Counted from the stretch's first letter, positions 26,427 through 35,298 are shown. The stretch is DNA of 49,793 nucleotides from an uncultured Verrucomicrobiota bacterium (GCA_903873945.1 CAIQQM010000250.1:1-49793); one strand, 5' to 3'. The notes: generated by a model from the letters alone, not told the origin. Made by a program: numbers and translations.

Positions 26427-26569
26427 GCGTCGCCGGCGGGAGAGTGCATTTTCACGATTCAGCACCGTCTGGCCCAAAGTGTCAACCCTTTGACGCCCGG
26501 CATATTAAGAATTTGGCTTGTGTTGTTTTCTGGCACGGTACTAAACTGAAATGAACTGTGATATTGCCT

Positions 26570-27610
26570 ATGAAAAAATTCTCCATCTACACTCTCACGC
26601 TCCTTGCGTGCATTCAATTCAACACCCATGTCGCCCTGGCATGGGACTATGAGGGCCATCGGGCCGTCAACGAGTTGGCGCTCGCTTCGCTGCCCACGAA
26701 CTTCCCGGCGTTTTTGCTGGCCCCCGAGGCGGTGGCGCGCGTCGCCTTTCTGGCGGGCGAACCGGACCGCTGGCGCAACACGCCGGACCTGCCCCTCGCC
26801 CATTACAGCTTCCCCGACCATTACATGGATTTCGAACAGTTGGCCGATTACGGGCTCAAGCCGGATATGCTGCCGGTCTTCCGCTATGATTTCATTGCCC
26901 AGCTTGCCCTGATCCGGCAGGCAAATTCGGAAAAGTTTTCGGCGGCCGATCCCGGCAAGGACCACACGCGCGAGCTGGTCGGGCTGCTGCCATGGGCGAT
27001 CACCGAAAACTACTCGAAATTGAAATCCGGTTTCTCATATCTCAAAGCGTTCGAAGAAGCCGGCACACCCGAAGAAATTGCCAACGCTCAGGCTAATATC
27101 ATCTATGTGCTGGGCACGATGGGCCATTACGTCGGGGATGCTTCGCAGCCCCTGCATGTGACCAAACATCATCATGGCTGGGTTGGAGAGAATCCGAACC
27201 AGTACACCACAGACTTCGGATTCCACAGTTGGATTGACGGTGGATTTTTCAACAAGATTGGCGGGGTAAACCTGGCGCAGCTCAAGGGCAAGCTCCGCCC
27301 CGCGCAACTGGTCGCCATCAACGGCCGCCCGGCGAAGCCGGAGGAAATGTTCCAGGTGGCGATGATTTTCATTAAGGAACAAAACAAGCTGGTGGAACCG
27401 CTTTACCAGCTTCAAAAGGACAAGAAGCTTACTGGCGAAGCTGAAGCCGGGCCTGAAGGGCGGGAGTTCTTGGAAAACCAATTGTTGAAATCTGGCCAGT
27501 GGCTTGGCGACATCTGCTACACTGCATGGCAGCAGGCGCCGCCGGATACTTACCTCAAAGGCCAGCTCGCCCGTCGCAAGCATGCGGCGGCTCTTGCGGA
27601 GAAAAAGTAA
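26570..27610 (+). CDS. Secreted S1/P1-type zinc nuclease
   Basis: The 346-residue precursor has a signal peptide (residues 1 to about 25, ending HVALA) and a mature N-terminus beginning W-x3-GH (WDYEGHRAV), whose Trp and His are metal ligands in S1/P1 nucleases. Later ligands appear in HYVGDASQPLHVTKHHHGWVGEN and FHSWID. Enzymes of this family cut single-stranded nucleic acids or remove 3' phosphates using three zinc ions. ATG 26570 is chosen over a GTG at 26558. It would act outside the cytoplasm, perhaps in phosphate or nucleotide scavenging. Confidence 0.9.
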   Translation: MKKFSIYTLTLLACIQFNTHVALAWDYEGHRAVNELALASLPTNFPAFLLAPEAVARVAFLAGEPDRWRNTPDLPLAHYSFPDHYMDFEQLADYGLKPDMLPVFRYDFIAQLALIRQANSEKFSAADPGKDHTRELVGLLPWAITENYSKLKSGFSYLKAFEEAGTPEEIANAQANIIYVLGTMGHYVGDASQPLHVTKHHHGWVGENPNQYTTDFGFHSWIDGGFFNKIGGVNLAQLKGKLRPAQLVAINGRPAKPEEMFQVAMIFIKEQNKLVEPLYQLQKDKKLTGEAEAGPEGREFLENQLLKSGQWLGDICYTAWQQAPPDTYLKGQLARRKHAAALAEKK

Positions 27611-27803: not shown

Positions 27804-28343
27804 GTGACCAGCATGCGTTCAATTCACAACCTTGCGCTTATTGGCTTCATGGGGACCGGCAAATCCAGCATAGGCCGGCTGGCAGCCGACAGCCTGCATT
27901 TCACATTCCTGGATACCGACCAGGTCATCGAAGCGCGTGCTGGAAAATCAGTGGACGAGATCTTTCAACAGGACGGCGAGCCGGCATTTCGCGAATGGGA
28001 GCGGAAAATGGTTGAAGAGCTGGCTCATCGGGAAAAAACCGTGATCGCCACGGGCGGCGGCTTGCCAGCCGACAAGGCCAACCTGGCTAGCCTGAAAACC
28101 CACGCGCTCGTCATTTGTCTTTGGGCTTCGCCGGAGACGATTTGGGAGCGGGTTCGTGGCCACACGCACCGGCCGTTGTTGAACGAACCGGAGCCGATCG
28201 CGAAGATCCGGCATCTTCTCGCTGTTCGCGAACCCTATTATCGCCAGGCCGATGTGCTGGTGAACACCGAACTGCGCTCCGTGCGTGAAATTGCCGTGCA
28301 AGTGGTCCATCAATTTCATCTGGCGTGGTCGGCCCATCAATGA
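27804..28343 (+). CDS. aroK: Shikimate kinase
   Basis: The 179-residue P-loop kinase phosphorylates shikimate in chorismate synthesis. Motifs are Walker A GFMGTGKSSIGR, the shikimate-binding D-x-D (DTDQVIE), FREWE, the GGG of ATGGGLP and the lid segment RVRGHTHRPLL. GTG 27804 and ATG 27813 are both possible starts. Its stop overlaps the queG start (ATGA), so the two are coupled. Confidence 0.93.
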   Translation: MTSMRSIHNLALIGFMGTGKSSIGRLAADSLHFTFLDTDQVIEARAGKSVDEIFQQDGEPAFREWERKMVEELAHREKTVIATGGGLPADKANLASLKTHALVICLWASPETIWERVRGHTHRPLLNEPEPIAKIRHLLAVREPYYRQADVLVNTELRSVREIAVQVVHQFHLAWSAHQ

Positions 28344-29491
28344 ACGAGACTGTCCGGCAGCGGGCGCGGGAACTCGGGTTTGAGGATTGCCGTATCACCA
28401 CCGCAAGTTCGCCGGAGTCCGCCTCACATTTCCTGCAATGGCTCGCCGAAGGGCGGCACGGCGAAATGGCATACCTCGAACGCAACGCGGCCAAACGAGT
28501 TCAGCCCCAACAGATCCTCCCCGGGGCTCGGAGCATCATCATGCTGGCGTCCAGCTATGCGGAAGTTGCTAGCCTGAAGCTGGAAGCGTGTCACCAGGGG
28601 ACGGCTTCCCGGATTCAGAGCTCCGGAATCCAGGGACCGGGGTTTCGAGGGCAAACTTCGCTTCGTGAAGAAGCATCTTCAGCGGCCGGTGGTAACGGGG
28701 CTAGGCGGCTTTTCGGCTTTGTCGCCCGCTACGCGCGGGGCTGTGATTATCATGAAGTGCTTGGCGAACGGCTTAAGGCGCTCACCTTGTTTGTCAACGA
28801 ACTGGGCGGTAAAGGCGCCCATTCTTTGTGGTATGTGGATACTGGTCCGGTGCTCGAACGCGACCTGGCCCAGCGCGCCGGATTGGGATTCATTGGCAAA
28901 CACACGAATCTCATCAGCCGCCGATTCGGCAACTGGATTTTTCTTTCGGAGATTATCACCAATCTTGAGCTGAAACCGGATGCCCCGGAGCGAAACCGCT
29001 GCGGTTCTTGCGTGCGGTGTATCGCGGCCTGTCCGACTGGAGCCATTAAAGCGCCGTTTCAGCTCGATGCCCGGCGGTGTATCTCCTGCCTCACCATCGA
29101 GCTCAAAGGACCAATTCCGGCGGAACTCCGCCCGGCGATTGGAAATCGGATTTTTGGCTGTGACGATTGCTTGGCTGTGTGTCCCTGGAACAGATTTGCG
29201 CGCGAAGGGCAAATAATGAAGACGCGCACAGCTTCGGACCTTGGCGCCCCGAACCTGCTGGAGTTGCTGTCTCTTGACGAAGAGGGCTTCAAGCTCCGTT
29301 TCGCGGGCACGCCGATATTGCGCGCCAGGCGTCGCGGGCTGCTTCGCAACGTCTGCGTTGCTCTCGGGAATGTCGGTGACGAGGTTGCCCTGCCGGCATT
29401 GCAAAGGGCCTCGCGCGAGGCTGAGCCGTTGATTGCCGAGCATGCCAAATGGGCCATCAATCAGATCGGGGGACGACGACGAGAACCGTAG
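28340..29491 (+). CDS. queG: Epoxyqueuosine reductase QueG, with an in-frame insertion
   Basis: The 383-residue cobalamin/iron-sulfur enzyme does the last step of queuosine synthesis in tRNA. Motifs are [34 protein letters not shown] (cobalamin region) and two ferredoxin-like clusters [16 protein letters not shown] and [11 protein letters not shown], then a HEAT-like C-terminus. Between SSYAE and the RYARG motif there are about 50 residues (76-124) where the family usually has far fewer. This insert is rich in Gly, Ser and Ala and holds a DNA palindrome. ATG 28340 overlaps the aroK stop. Confidence 0.93.
28611..28631. repeat. Palindrome inside the queG insertion
   Basis: GGATTC and GAATCC flank the perfect core GAGCTC, making a near-perfect palindrome of 21 bases. 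It sits in the centre of the extra coding segment of queG and resembles a palindromic repeat that has entered a gene in frame. Confidence 0.6.
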
Positions 29492-29781: not shown

Positions 29782-31149
29782 CTACGACCACACCCCGGCA
29801 ATCTTCGCCCCGCAAAAGCGGCATTTGCCGGCATCGAGGTTAAACGAGGTGACGGAAAAAATGTCCCGTTCGATGATGGGTTTCCGGCAAGCGGGACAAA
29901 ACGTTGTCTCTGCGTTTTCGAGGCCGGGCACGTTGCCGATGTAAACGTAACGGAGGCCCTCGGAACGGGCGATTTCACGCGCCTTCACGAGCGTTTCGAC
30001 CGGCGTGGGAGGGAGCTGGGCGAGCTTATGCTCGGGATGGAAGCGTGAGAAGTGCAGCGGACGATCAGATCCCAACTCCTTAGCGATCCAGCCACACATC
30101 CTGCGGATCATGGAAAGGTCGTCGGTGTAAGTCGGAACAACGAGATTGATGATCTCGAACCAAACGCCAAGTTCTTTGAGCGTCTGAAGCGTATTCAGGA
30201 TCGGCTGGAGTTTCCCGGAGTTAAGCGTCTTATAAGTCTCATCGTCGAAACCCTTGAGGTCAACGTGCGCGGCATCCACGAGCTGATAGAGGTCGCGGGC
30301 TGGGCGCTCCTCAATGGAGCCGCAACTGACGACGATGTTCCTGAGCTTGCGCTCGCGCGCGGCCTTGCAGATGTCGAAAGTGTATTCATAGAAAGCGGTC
30401 GGTTCGGAGTATGTGCAGGCAAGCGATAGGCAACCTAGGGCCTCGGCGACCGCAACGGCGTCCGCCGGGAAAAGGCTCAGTTTCGCTATTTGGTCGAGGG
30501 TCAGGCCCTGAGGCAACGGCGGGCGCAATCGCAGTTCTTCGCCGCGCGGGTCCTTGGTCTCTTCCGGTTTTTTTTGTGAAATCTCCCAATTCTGGCAATT
30601 GAGGCAGCGAAAGACGCAGCCGGAAGTGGCGAGCGAAAAGGTGCGGCTGCCGGGAAGGAAATGGAACAAGGGCTTTTTCTCAACCGGATCGACATGAAAC
30701 GTACAGGGGTTGGCATAGACCAGCGTGTAGAGCGTGCCGTCATCATTGACCTTGTTGCGGCAATGACTGCGGTCGCCGGGGGCCAGCAGGCAGTTGTTGG
30801 GGCAGACCTTGCACTGAACGTTGCGGCCGAGCTTGAAGTAGTGGGAGGCTTCCTTGGCCCAGCCGCGCTTTCGCCAGAGGTCCCAAAGTTCGCCCTTCGG
30901 CGCATCGCCCTTGAAAATGTCGGCAGGCGCTTCGGAATCGCGCCATTTGGCGAAGAAATCGAAGAGCGAAGCGGCGCCGGCGAGACCGGCAACCCCTGCG
31001 GCGCCCAAGCCAATGGCCGCCCGGCGCGAGAGGGGTTTGCCATGCAGGATAGTGGCGCGGCGACGAATCGAGGCGCCGCTATTTGCAACTCTGCCGTTCT
31101 GCGCTTCCGGATTGTTCACGGCTCGTCGCGATGCTTGATCCAGCCCCAT
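29782..31149 (-). CDS. AmmeMemoRadiSam system radical SAM enzyme with twin-arginine leader
   Basis: The 455-residue protein has the radical SAM cluster motif C-x3-C-x2-C (CVFRCLNC, Cys178, 182, 185) in the context FSLATSGCVFRCLNCQNWEISQ that marks this family. A four-Cys region precedes it (Cys113, 116, 120, 130), and a CPAC...CRFC pair ends the protein. The N-terminus has SRRAAIGLG (Arg42-Arg43) before a mild hydrophobic stretch, a twin-arginine export signal by pattern. It is the last gene of the operon and overlaps the small membrane gene. Its reaction is unknown. Export of a SAM-dependent enzyme would be unusual; the leader might instead be a membrane anchor. Confidence 0.9.
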   Translation of the reverse strand: MGLDQASRRAVNNPEAQNGRVANSGASIRRRATILHGKPLSRRAAIGLGAAGVAGLAGAASLFDFFAKWRDSEAPADIFKGDAPKGELWDLWRKRGWAKEASHYFKLGRNVQCKVCPNNCLLAPGDRSHCRNKVNDDGTLYTLVYANPCTFHVDPVEKKPLFHFLPGSRTFSLATSGCVFRCLNCQNWEISQKKPEETKDPRGEELRLRPPLPQGLTLDQIAKLSLFPADAVAVAEALGCLSLACTYSEPTAFYEYTFDICKAARERKLRNIVVSCGSIEERPARDLYQLVDAAHVDLKGFDDETYKTLNSGKLQPILNTLQTLKELGVWFEIINLVVPTYTDDLSMIRRMCGWIAKELGSDRPLHFSRFHPEHKLAQLPPTPVETLVKAREIARSEGLRYVYIGNVPGLENAETTFCPACRKPIIERDIFSVTSFNLDAGKCRFCGAKIAGVWS

Positions 31150-31379
31150 CGCTGAAGAGCAAGATACACCGCCGGCAAGCTATGCGCGAGGACGAGAATG
31201 ATCAGGGGAATATGAAGCATGCGATGAAATGTCAGAGCGGATTTCTCGTCCAGGATTTTGCCAAGCCCGTAACGGCCGTCCATGACGTAGCCGGTAAAAA
31301 GGAACAACAGGAGCAATGGCAGCAAAGGCCACCCGCTCCAGCGTACCGCTTTGAGAAGAATGAAATTGAGTTTGCTCAT
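31116..31379 (-). CDS. Small His-containing membrane protein, possibly heme b-binding
   Basis: The 87-residue protein has two hydrophobic helices (about 14-33 and 52-76). The second holds His52, His56 and His66 (FHRMLHIPLIILVLAHSLP); the 14-residue spacing of His52 and His66 resembles the paired ligands of cytochrome b helices. ATG 31379 is chosen because GGAAAGG precedes it; the frame opens earlier at 31403. It lies 49 bases after the spermidine-synthase-like gene and overlaps the radical SAM gene. Heme binding is an inference; it may be a partner that brings electrons to the other operon products. Confidence 0.75.
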   Translation of the reverse strand: MSKLNFILLKAVRWSGWPLLPLLLLFLFTGYVMDGRYGLGKILDEKSALTFHRMLHIPLIILVLAHSLPAVYLALQRWGWIKHRDEP

Positions 31380-31428
31380 GTTACAGCCTTTCCGGATACA
31401 CATCGCGCCATGCGAGCCAATGGACAGG

Positions 31429-33681
31429 TCATAGGGGCCTCATCATTGCGCCCGCGAGAAGGTTTAAGGCGGCCGCCAGCCAGCAGACGCCCGCTACGCC
31501 GAGCAGCGGAATCAGGAACGTGCAGGCCAGCAAGGCGCCAAGAGACGCCCCAACAAAATCCGCCGCATAAAGTTTGGAAGCGCCCGCGCCAGTGCCATCG
31601 AATTCAACCCGGTTGGCCAGTGGAAACTGCATCCCCACAACAAAAGCGAGGACCAGGGTGAGAACGCTGATGAGCACTTTGAGCGCGAGGAGCGAGGCGT
31701 CGCTGCCACCCATCCGATTCAACCAGGGAAGCAAAAGTGGGAGAAGGATTGCATAAGCAGTGAGCGCGCACGCCAGGAGAGCCAAAATCATTCGGTGGAC
31801 CGGCAATACCCTCTCTGAAACCGGGTCGCGCAGCCCCGTGTTTTCCTGCGTAGAAGGGGAAACCAGGACGGAGCCACCATCTCCGACGGGGTTGAAGAGG
31901 CGGTTGGCTGCCAGTGCCCCGAGAGCCAACCCGATCATAAAGACCGTCACGATGATGCCAACCTGATGATAGACCGATCCGCAAAGGACCTGGAAGGCCA
32001 GGAGGAGGACAACCTCCAAAGCGGAAGCGGCAAAGCCCGAAGCAAACAGGACAAGGGCGCTGCCGCGCAACCGGGCGATGTAGAAACCCAGCAGAAGAAG
32101 CAGCGCCGCTTGCAGCGGCCCGAAGCTGAAATCGAATTGGCTCATCCAGTGGCGGAGGTAATAGTAATAGAGAACCGGGCTGAAGTTCTGGTTGAGCGGC
32201 ACCGGTTGCGCCGCGGCATGGGCCAGGTCTGCCATGCGGTCGGGTGTCATCATCGCGTCGAGGTAATGATGATTGACCAGTCTGGTTTTAATCCCGCGCT
32301 GTTCGATGCGCGCCGCGATGTCGCTGAACAGCGGGCCGTCCGAGGCGAGGAAAAAGATGCGGCTGCCGGGAATTGCCAGGATGTTGCGGAAGGATTGATT
32401 TGATGACAACCGGGCGGAGGACAGTATGCGCGTCATCTCCCGGCTGACATAATTTTCATATCGACCGAGCGAAAAAGACACCACTCCATCACTGACGAGC
32501 GCGCGTTTGACATCCGCCAGGAATTCGACGGTGTAGAACCGGTTGAGCAGGGCAGTGGACGGCGCCGGAACATCGATAATAACCACGTCATACTTATCCA
32601 GGGTCTTCTTGATGAACAAACGTCCATCGCCATTGATGATTCGGATGCGGCTGTCAGCCAGGTTTTCCGGAAGATATTTTCTGCCGAACTCCAAAATCGC
32701 GGGGTCCAGCTCGACATAATCGACGCGGGCGACATTGTATTTGAGGATTTCCCTGGCGGTGCCGGAGATGCCGCCGGAGACGAGCAGTACTTTGCGGGCA
32801 TCAGGCCGTTGCGACATTGCATAATGCACAACCTCCTCAACATGTTGGTCATCGCGTGTCGAAATGGCCGGAAGGCCGTTTTCGAAGAAATCGAATTGGC
32901 CGTCGGACTCGGTGATGACGAGTTTTCCGTAGGGAGAGTTCGCCCGGGCAACAATCCGCTGCCGCGGGTACTGCAAGCCGGTTGAAATGCCGTCAAGGTC
33001 GGCGAAAACCATCAGCGCAAGAAGCCCGGCGCCCAAAACCGAGGCAAGCAGCGAAAGTGAGCGCCGCCCGCAAAGAAAGCCGGTGGCACAGGCGACCCCG
33101 AGGTTCAAGAAAGCGGGCCAGAGTAGGATGGAGCTGTGGTCAAGGAACCGGACAAGCACAAAGCTGAAAACAATTCCTCCGATTATGCTGCCAATGCTGT
33201 CGGCGACGTAGGCGCGCCCAATTCCGGCGGAACCTTCCCGGCGCGCCAGAATCGAACACGACAGCGTCAAAGCGAAGCCGGCCGGGAGACAATAAGGCAG
33301 CAGCAGGAAAGAGACGCCGGCCATGGTTTGACCGGCGCCAACCGCAGCTCCGCGAATAAAGACAAGATTGCGCAAGGCGCGCAAAAGAAAAACCTGGAGC
33401 AAAGGCAGAACGGCAACGAGGATTTGGAGAATTGCCAGGATGGACAACTGGGCGCGGATTCGTTCCGAGACGCGGCCAAGCCAGGTCCCGATGCCCATCA
33501 ACAAGAGCCACAGACCCAGCACTATGCCAAAAACCATTTCGTTTCCGGAGAAAGCGGCCAGCAGTTCGCGCATCAGCGCGAGCTGGGTCATAACACAGGA
33601 GACGCCAAGCGCGCCGACGGCGACAAGCACCAGAATCCGTCCGTTTTGCTGCAGGGGCGCCACCTGTTTGTGGACGGGCAT
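31429..33681 (-). CDS. Multispanning membrane protein with central spermidine-synthase-like domain
   Basis: The 750-residue protein has about six or seven helices (residues 15-225), a Rossmann methyltransferase/aminopropyltransferase-like domain (about 240-470), then about six more helices (about 485-750). The central domain keeps GKLVITESD, the glycine loop in altered form (LLVSGGISGTAREIL, where GGGDG is usual), YVELDPAIL and VVIIDVPAPS. Such membrane SpeE-like proteins are common and functionally unassigned. It follows the Memo-AMMECR1 gene by 27 bases. The altered loop argues against ordinary spermidine synthesis. Confidence 0.87.
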   Translation of the reverse strand: MPVHKQVAPLQQNGRILVLVAVGALGVSCVMTQLALMRELLAAFSGNEMVFGIVLGLWLLLMGIGTWLGRVSERIRAQLSILAILQILVAVLPLLQVFLLRALRNLVFIRGAAVGAGQTMAGVSFLLLPYCLPAGFALTLSCSILARREGSAGIGRAYVADSIGSIIGGIVFSFVLVRFLDHSSILLWPAFLNLGVACATGFLCGRRSLSLLASVLGAGLLALMVFADLDGISTGLQYPRQRIVARANSPYGKLVITESDGQFDFFENGLPAISTRDDQHVEEVVHYAMSQRPDARKVLLVSGGISGTAREILKYNVARVDYVELDPAILEFGRKYLPENLADSRIRIINGDGRLFIKKTLDKYDVVIIDVPAPSTALLNRFYTVEFLADVKRALVSDGVVSFSLGRYENYVSREMTRILSSARLSSNQSFRNILAIPGSRIFFLASDGPLFSDIAARIEQRGIKTRLVNHHYLDAMMTPDRMADLAHAAAQPVPLNQNFSPVLYYYYLRHWMSQFDFSFGPLQAALLLLLGFYIARLRGSALVLFASGFAASALEVVLLLAFQVLCGSVYHQVGIIVTVFMIGLALGALAANRLFNPVGDGGSVLVSPSTQENTGLRDPVSERVLPVHRMILALLACALTAYAILLPLLLPWLNRMGGSDASLLALKVLISVLTLVLAFVVGMQFPLANRVEFDGTGAGASKLYAADFVGASLGALLACTFLIPLLGVAGVCWLAAALNLLAGAMMRPL

Positions 33682-33708
33682 GCCAATTCAAAAGCCGAGT
33701 TTCGGAAC

Positions 33709-35298
33709 TTAGTCCTCCTCGAACGATTCAACGCGGTAGATGGAAACCGAGGTGTCCTTGCCGCGCCAGGCGGAAGGTTCGCAGCCGGCCTTCTGCGAAA
33801 GATGGTTTAGAAATTGGACTTTATCCGGAAGCTGCGCCCAAACCTGGGGCAGAAAGGTTGCCATGCCGGGGCCGACACGCAGCACCACGCCGTCTTCGTA
33901 AGGCCGGAGTTTGCTCAAAAGGTCCTCCGGCGAACTAAACTGTAATGGCTTCGGCTCAGTCAAAACGCTGATTTCGATTTTGATTTTATCCACTTCGTCG
34001 GGGCGGACAGGGAGGAAGCGCGGGTCACGCAACGCGGCACTGCAGGCGTTGTCCATGACGGCTTTATAGAGGGATTCCTGCGGGAGAATATGACCGATGC
34101 AGCCGCGCAACGCGCCATCGGCGGTTAGCGTCACGAAGCAGGCTTTCTTTTCCGCCAGTTTTGCGGCCACGCTCCCGCTCTGGACATCAGGCAAATCGCC
34201 ATTGGTCGCGACGCTTTTGAGTGTCCGGCGAGCCAGTTCGAGCAGAAACCTTCTCTCCTCCGCAGAATAGTTCTGGTTTGCCGGATCGTAAAACGCCACC
34301 GCTGTATAGCCGACAACGCGGTCCTTTTCGCCGGTGACATCGCCGCTGTTGCGGCAGTCCAACAAGCGGGCCTTCCAGCCTTTGAGCCAAGCCAAGCGCA
34401 TCAACGTAAGAATCGGCAATTTACCGCAGGCTTCCTGGGTTTTGACCTGCTCGATGTCAAGGTCGCAAATGGCTTTGACACAGCGGCCATCCAGTTCCTT
34501 TGCGACATCGTACGGGTGATAATGACTCAGGTCCGAGCTGGCGACAATAATTGTTTTGTCGTCTATGACGGCGGTCAGGGCGCGGGCGGCTTCGTCCGGA
34601 CTTGTATCCCCAAACAAGATGGGGAGGATTTTAAAGTCTTTTAAACTTCTTTGGAGAAAAGGAAGCTGGACCTCGACAGAATGCTCCCAGGTCTCAGGCG
34701 TGTCCTGGCCGGGTTCGGGCGCAGGCTTTGGCGACTGTTGCCAAAATGGAGGTCGCTCGACCGGACACCGTGGTTCCAGCACGAAGGGTGAAACTGAACT
34801 CAGCGCTTTGGACTTCTCCGAAACCGGAACCAGCCCAAGCGGGGTTCGGAAGGCGTTGGCGTTGGGAATAGACGCGCCCTGGAAAATGGCATAATGGCTG
34901 GGTCCCATGATTATGACCGTTTGGATGTCCCGCCCGGCCAGCAACTTGTAAGCGGCGGCGGCGGTGCGTCCCGAGTAGGCATAACCCGCGTGAGGACACA
35001 CCAGGCCTTTCAGGCGAGGGATATAATGGCCGGGGGCCCTGTCCAGCAGGCCGTCGACGGCTTTTGAAAGAGCCTGCCCATCGGATGGATAAAATAGCCC
35101 CGCGACAGCAGCCGCCCGAACCCGTTGCGGGTCGGGTGAAGCAACGGCCCGGGTGGTGTGGTTTGTAAGCCGGGGGCTCGTGGCAGGTTCGCCTGAACGC
35201 GCGCCGCACCCGGAACCCGGCAGGAGCAGTGCCAGAAGACTAATCGAAGCTGTTACCCTGCCGTTCCGGGTCCAGGAGAAATGCCTGTTCTTTTTCAT
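33709..35298 (-). CDS. Memo-AMMECR1 fusion protein with signal peptide (AmmeMemoRadiSam B and A)
   Basis: The 529-residue protein joins a Memo domain (about 60-340) to an AMMECR1 domain (about 345-525). Memo metal-site residues are present: His103 (PHAGYAYSG), His135 (GPSHY), His206 (EHSVEVQ) and Cys291 (CGKLPI). AMMECR1 has its hallmark LRGCIGHI (397-404). Residues 1-31 form a basic and hydrophobic export signal ending GSGC, a possible though imperfect lipobox at Cys31. It is first in the operon. Family members are usually thought of as cytoplasmic, so export is noteworthy; the biochemical role is unknown. Confidence 0.92.
   Translation of the reverse strand: MKKNRHFSWTRNGRVTASISLLALLLPGSGCGARSGEPATSPRLTNHTTRAVASPDPQRVRAAAVAGLFYPSDGQALSKAVDGLLDRAPGHYIPRLKGLVCPHAGYAYSGRTAAAAYKLLAGRDIQTVIIMGPSHYAIFQGASIPNANAFRTPLGLVPVSEKSKALSSVSPFVLEPRCPVERPPFWQQSPKPAPEPGQDTPETWEHSVEVQLPFLQRSLKDFKILPILFGDTSPDEAARALTAVIDDKTIIVASSDLSHYHPYDVAKELDGRCVKAICDLDIEQVKTQEACGKLPILTLMRLAWLKGWKARLLDCRNSGDVTGEKDRVVGYTAVAFYDPANQNYSAEERRFLLELARRTLKSVATNGDLPDVQSGSVAAKLAEKKACFVTLTADGALRGCIGHILPQESLYKAVMDNACSAALRDPRFLPVRPDEVDKIKIEISVLTEPKPLQFSSPEDLLSKLRPYEDGVVLRVGPGMATFLPQVWAQLPDKVQFLNHLSQKAGCEPSAWRGKDTSVSIYRVESFEED

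Follow-up and report, generated by a model that had tools for sequence, protein, structure and literature searches.

A candidate exported AmmeMemoRadiSam system in a four-gene operon of an uncultured Verrucomicrobiota bacterium

The AmmeMemoRadiSam system is widespread, and conservation of its Memo and AMMECR1 parts reaches as far as humans; to our knowledge, no reaction has been assigned to it. We know of no extracytoplasmic radical SAM system or dedicated bacterial SAM exporter described so far, nor of SAM being available outside the cell membrane. A search of the open literature returned no paper on exported AmmeMemoRadiSam or on periplasmic radical SAM enzymes; Burroughs et al. (J Biol Chem 2019) lay outside this search and may hold an earlier mention of secreted Memo. 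Human MEMO1, a cytosolic protein, has the iron ligands H49, H81 and C244 (PMC11081632). Here we describe a version of AmmeMemoRadiSam that appears to be exported and tied to the membrane; its conservation across a number of bacterial phyla and in certain archaea is supported by sequence comparisons.

The operon and the systems it resembles

The DNA analysed, called the window below, is a stretch of 49,793 nucleotides from an uncultured Verrucomicrobiota bacterium (GCA_903873945.1, CAIQQM010000250.1). A four-gene operon occupies positions 29782-35298 of the minus strand, on which all features given below lie. It begins with a Memo-AMMECR1 fusion of 529 aa (33709..35298), followed by a SpeE-like integral membrane protein of 750 aa (31429..33681), a small two-helix membrane protein that appears cytochrome-b-like from the alignment of its homologues (31116..31379) and AmrS, the AmmeMemoRadiSam radical SAM enzyme, with 455 aa (29782..31149). 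The coordinates of all four genes agree with the preliminary description, and so do their shared strand, the gaps of 27 and 49 nt and the single overlap; family matches and leaders bear out its reading of the operon as a radical SAM enzyme, a SpeE-like protein and a fusion with an export signal. The start of AmrS may instead be a GTG at 31119, which forms a GTGA junction with the TGA stop codon of the small gene; the twin arginines discussed below (R42-R43) are retained with either start. The operon is flanked by polA, QueG and shikimate kinase. These flanking genes were rejected as pathway partners, since other neighbours surround the operon of L140, the single relative whose locus was read from end to end.

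As in the described AmmeMemoRadiSam system, the three families are co-located and score above their cut-offs, and both the radical SAM cluster and the Memo metal ligands are intact. The fusion reaches 233 bits with TIGR04336 (cut-off 26) and 195 bits with TIGR04335 (cut-off 99), and AmrS 336 bits with TIGR04337 (cut-off 220). Within the fusion, the Memo domain (residues 63-333, 34300..35112, PF01875) contains H103, H135 and C291, all invariant in the exported set, which correspond to H49, H81 and C244 of MEMO1; C291 was matched by motif, and we take it to be the counterpart of C244. The Memo domain shares its iron ligands with MEMO1, which is cytosolic (PMC11081632) and carries no AMMECR1 fusion. 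The AMMECR1 domain (residues 353-526, 33721..34242, PF01871) carries an LRGCIG motif (L397-G402) that is invariant in 40/40 sequences. The CxxxCxxC cluster motif of AmrS (C178, C182 and C185, 30595..30618) is invariant in our AmrS alignment (A3).

The closest solved fold to AmrS is that of pyruvate formate-lyase (PFL) activase (8fo0 and 3cb8, E 1.8e-13 to about 2e-13), with TMt values of 0.73-0.77; the family that comes second trails it in E-value by several orders of magnitude. Fold and CxxxCxxC motif are shared with this activating enzyme, but identity is only 17-18%, and AmrS has extra N- and C-terminal cysteine clusters, a Tat leader and no glycyl radical enzyme in its operon. It also scores far under the cut-offs of the activase families, with 50 bits versus 250 for YjjW and 49 versus 232 for PflA.

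The operon differs from ordinary AmmeMemoRadiSam loci in the export leaders on Memo-AMMECR1 and AmrS and in the SpeE-like and cytochrome-like genes that it includes. An example of the ordinary type is found in the same genome on another contig (C66, locus L036), where a second AmrS gene overlaps a Memo gene, both products are leaderless and neither of the two extra membrane-protein genes is present. The copy in the window was the only AMMECR1 domain found in this genome, which is 90% complete.

Export leaders of AmrS and of Memo-AMMECR1

The core of the twin-arginine leader of AmrS, SRRAAIGLGAAGVAGLAGAASLFDFF, comprises residues 41-66 (30952..31029). It is supported by the conservation of R42, which is at least 90% among 56 exported AmrS homologues, by a Tat-motif test and by the AlphaFold model, in which a helix spans residues 42-73 with the twin arginines as its first residues. 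For the test, the region before the first cysteine cluster of 157 AmrS loci was scored for a Tat-like motif with a hydrophobic stretch after it. Such a leader was present in 92/157 loci, versus about 2% after shuffling of the same N-terminal residues, and in none of the cytosolic-type AmrS. These counts come from the wider of two classifiers, the stricter one missing leaders such as TRKEFLK. The shuffle test and the conservation across phyla exclude a chance origin, and the leader is, judged from these sequences, beyond chance. Among the 65 loci that failed the test, 56 had no SpeE detected alongside. Those with an adjacent SpeE comprised three with RR/KR variants outside the pattern (L130, L150, L170), one with a plain membrane helix (L076), two with damage or a frameshift (L135, L152) and three that are leaderless (L079, L082, L090); in L075, leaderless too, SpeE lies slightly past the distance cut-off.

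On the AmrS tree, an export leader is found in 79/79 members of the clade that contains the window's protein (SH-aLRT 99), which comprises Verrucomicrobiota, Desulfobacterota, Bacteroidales, Myxococcota, others and two archaeal lineages. The export label changes only four times over the 155 rows of the tree, with the label assigned by eye for L130, L150, L170 and L076. The leader on the radical SAM enzyme, claimed from the window's sequence at the outset, is a constant property of this clade, and the leaderless homologues that were to count against it do exist in sister clades but not in the window's own. Leaders of Desulfobacterota AmrS have the pattern S/T-R-K-x-F-L-K, many of them fit the Tat consensus, and several are followed by AxA sites, for example PAYA|LWPF; the leader of L143 reads NRRKFLMGCGLGVMCASVPAYA|LWPF. 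Those of Verrucomicrobiota, the window included, have a long n-region and no clear AxA cleavage site. TatC is encoded in the genome (139 bits, cut-off 132.7).

The fusion starts with the signal sequence MKKNRHFSWTRNGRVTASISLLALLLPGSGCG (35203..35298), which is possibly a lipoprotein signal; its relatives have clearer lipoboxes (LLAAGC, LSVSAC) or Sec/TM signals. A simple hydrophobic-leader test was passed by 46/59 Memo/AMMECR1 proteins adjoining an exported AmrS, and among the 13 that failed some are truncated at contig ends, some were cut too late by the test and several have signals discernible by eye. Next to a leaderless AmrS the test was passed by 10/29, all ten in one nested clade, and by 0/19 outside that clade. 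Among the operons found in Desulfobacterota the usual order is AMMECR1-SpeE-AmrS, with no Memo. Where the operon lacks Memo, a Memo with a signal sequence is encoded elsewhere in 14/14 genomes checked, myxococcotes included.

The nested clade just mentioned lies near the exported ones and consists of 17 AmrS that are leaderless and start just before the first cysteine cluster. Some of them adjoin SpeE, and ten of the ten Memo or Memo-AMMECR1 proteins sampled are exported. Retention of the module therefore does not require an outside AmrS. Either AmrS has moved back into the cytoplasm in this clade, or the chemistry is cytoplasmic generally and the leader serves something else.

Two membrane proteins as probable partners

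The SpeE-like protein scores above the cut-offs of PF01564 (E 4e-26) and NF037959 (51.5 versus a cut-off of 40), and its best Foldseek matches are spermidine synthases (1uir, and 3anx with MTA). The AlphaFold model (pLDDT 91.3) has seven helices, a SpeE-fold domain (32122..33003) and then six or seven helices, for about 14 in all. A bias in K+R favours a cytoplasmic N-terminus in 51/51 homologues (mean 15.2 versus 5.4 K+R), and since seven helices precede it, the SpeE domain is predicted to lie on the outer face of the membrane, as judged from model, charge bias and alignment.

With spermidine synthase, PRK03612-type aminopropyltransferases and NF037959 this protein shares the fold and the adenosyl-binding acids, E324 being retained in 50/51 and D352 in 51/51 homologues, although its PRK03612 score is 190 against a cut-off of 472. 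It departs from polyamine aminopropyltransferases in its predicted outer domain and in its active site. There is no GGGDG acid at positions 305-306 in 51/51 aligned homologues, and D370, the catalytic aspartate of DSSDP, is present in the window's protein but in only 34/51 homologues, while E282, Q291, R354, N380 and R381 are invariant. With the GGGDG acid missing from every homologue, the protein is probably not a polyamine synthase, an activity that we considered and disfavour. Without an acid close to the aminopropyl group, the pocket might accept SAM with its carboxylate.

The small membrane protein has no family match of its own in the window. Weak matches to cytochrome b561 (PF01292) were obtained with 12/33 of its homologues (best E 4e-4). 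H52 and H66 are invariant, as are R13, W17 and G30, so that the "His-rich" of the preliminary description overstates two conserved histidines, while "membrane protein" stands. The two histidines lie 14 residues apart, a spacing like that of the heme ligands of b-type cytochromes. The gene was not found in the operons of Desulfobacterota and Bacteroidales and is therefore an accessory; in this respect the co-occurrence of the small protein with the exported enzymes, a point raised in the preliminary description, extends to part of the lineages only.

The gene arrangement [Memo-AMMECR1]-SpeE-(small gene)-AmrS is shared by Verrucomicrobiota, Desulfobacterota, Myxococcota, Planctomycetes and Acidobacteria, as well as by Bacteroidales, where Memo-AMMECR1 is divergent; in a woesearchaeote SpeE lies near AmrS. 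In 41 related genomes, SpeE scores above 450 bits in exactly the six with an exported-type AmrS, one of which (G021) was counted on the basis of an incomplete AmrS at the end of a contig, and at most 70 bits in each of the other 35. Some Tat-AmrS of Desulfobacterota have no SpeE within about 1.3 kb, their loci being short. When AmrS lacks a close SpeE, a high-scoring one is encoded elsewhere in 15/15 genomes (386-951 bits), and two of the nearest relatives (G003, G012) retain AmrS and SpeE on separate contigs. In phylogenetically independent pairs contrasting SpeE adjacency with the leader, the leader hardly varies. We rejected the idea of SpeE as a bystander, since this subtype accompanies exported AmrS also in genomes where the two genes lie apart.

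Location and possible mechanism

The leaders in 79/79 AmrS, the exported Memo/AMMECR1 and the SpeE retained even where unlinked, together with the predicted outer SpeE domain, uphold the earlier proposal that the system works at or outside the membrane. An extracytoplasmic location of this AmmeMemoRadiSam variant is well supported by the sequence comparisons, and all catalytic domains are very probably outside. To our best explanation as a whole, this location together with the mechanism proposed below, we give an even chance.

In such a variant, we infer the reaction and the supply of SAM and electrons as follows. Memo-AMMECR1 would be secreted as a lipoprotein or a membrane-anchored protein, while AmrS would be folded and loaded with its [4Fe-4S] clusters in the cytoplasm before export by Tat. 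The adenosyl-binding domain of the SpeE-like protein would lie on the outer side as well. There AmrS might act like a glycyl-radical-enzyme activase on a partner, most likely Memo-AMMECR1, with one SAM spent per activated partner; Memo-AMMECR1 would be the partner or a co-enzyme of AmrS. Activases spend one SAM for each hydrogen that they remove from a partner protein, which would ease the limited supply of SAM outside. Such an action on Memo-AMMECR1, drawn from the likeness in fold, is conceivable, and we propose it with reserve. The SpeE-like protein may bring SAM to the outer face or clear the nucleoside product, and that it handles SAM or its products at all is a tentative suggestion by analogy, somewhat short of an even chance. 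Much the same holds for the cytochrome-b-like protein, which might donate electrons from the membrane in some lineages. The preliminary description had both proteins as partners that could supply substrate or electrons; the partnership of SpeE is borne out by co-retention, while what either would supply is our conjecture. SAM transport and partner activation are read from fold analogy and conserved residues, and a conserved radical SAM system outside the cytoplasm, with its own membrane protein moving SAM or products across, appears to us possible rather than probable. A point against it is that any periplasmic radical SAM enzyme needs a low-potential reductant.

The same genes might instead form an extracytoplasmic biosynthetic or tailoring pathway, in which the SpeE-like protein, AmrS and Memo act in turn on a substrate in the membrane, for example a quinone, a polyprenyl or another lipid, and SpeE is an adenosyl-dependent transferase and not a supplier of SAM. 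The retained residues of the adenosyl pocket and the invariant N380, R381 and R354 would suit a transferase, the module sits at the membrane and includes a cytochrome-like accessory, and in 2019 Burroughs and colleagues reportedly linked Memo to nucleotide-base and isoprenoid modification. However, the operon at L140 is surrounded by unrelated neighbours and no pathway genes, and the transferase would itself need SAM outside, so that we consider a pathway of this kind rather unlikely. The supply of SAM would be accounted for if the chemistry of AmrS were cytoplasmic, the partner (Memo-AMMECR1 or another) being modified before translocation and the Tat leader serving co-export of the completed complex or docking at the membrane. 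This arrangement agrees with the nested clade, in which AmrS is leaderless and Memo-AMMECR1 exported, and Tat does carry folded, cofactor-loaded proteins. The signals of Memo-AMMECR1, however, resemble the Sec or lipoprotein type, which carry unfolded proteins, and a conserved outward-facing adenosyl-binding partner would be left unexplained; we judge cytoplasmic chemistry to be unlikely.

It could also be argued from the long n-region and the missing cleavage site of the Verrucomicrobiota leaders that the RR-hydrophobic segment is an extension that stays in the cytoplasm or has no function, and that AmrS is an ordinary cytosolic enzyme. Conservation of the motif across phyla and archaea, the canonical cleavage sites in several Desulfobacterota, the rarity of changes in the export label on the tree and the co-occurring leaders of Memo/AMMECR1 make this very improbable.

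For the AmmeMemoRadiSam family, a membrane-tied version with fixed extra partners narrows the hunt for its function. Should the radical chemistry indeed take place outside, the view of SAM enzymes as cytoplasmic would no longer hold, and a route for SAM across the membrane would be predicted.

The window and its genome

At window positions 28325-29491 lies a gene for QueG, and an apparent insert within its reading frame (31 protein letters, not shown) explains why the family match is split into two stretches. A signal-bearing protein is encoded at 26558-27610, with a sub-threshold match to S1/P1 nuclease (E 1e-4). Elsewhere in the same genome, contig C66 carries a second AmrS gene which overlaps a Memo gene (locus L036), both products being devoid of a leader. 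Despite this second pair, the genome, which is 90% complete, yielded no second copy of the AMMECR1 domain.

SpeE-like genes in the vicinity of AmrS

At the compared loci L075, L079, L082 and L090 a SpeE-like ORF lies close to an AmrS gene without leader. This ORF is very large in L079, L082 and L090 (~1,260-1,450 aa), the AmrS start in L075 and L082 is just upstream of the first cysteine cluster, and a lipoprotein-like Memo-AMMECR1 is also present in L075 and L090. The Desulfobacterota contain a second lineage of AmrS with a twin-arginine leader (L220, L221, L224, L227, L231, L232 and L234); no SpeE was found near these AmrS genes within the short loci available, with flanks of at most ~1.3-1.5 kb.

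Memo proteins in other lineages

A third type of Memo protein, of ~400 aa, occurs in Desulfobacterota loci L190, L191 and L193 and has an N-terminal extension and no leader. In the Bacteroidales loci L150, L162, L164 and L167, Memo-AMMECR1 is encoded divergently from SpeE-AmrS and lies outside their operon.
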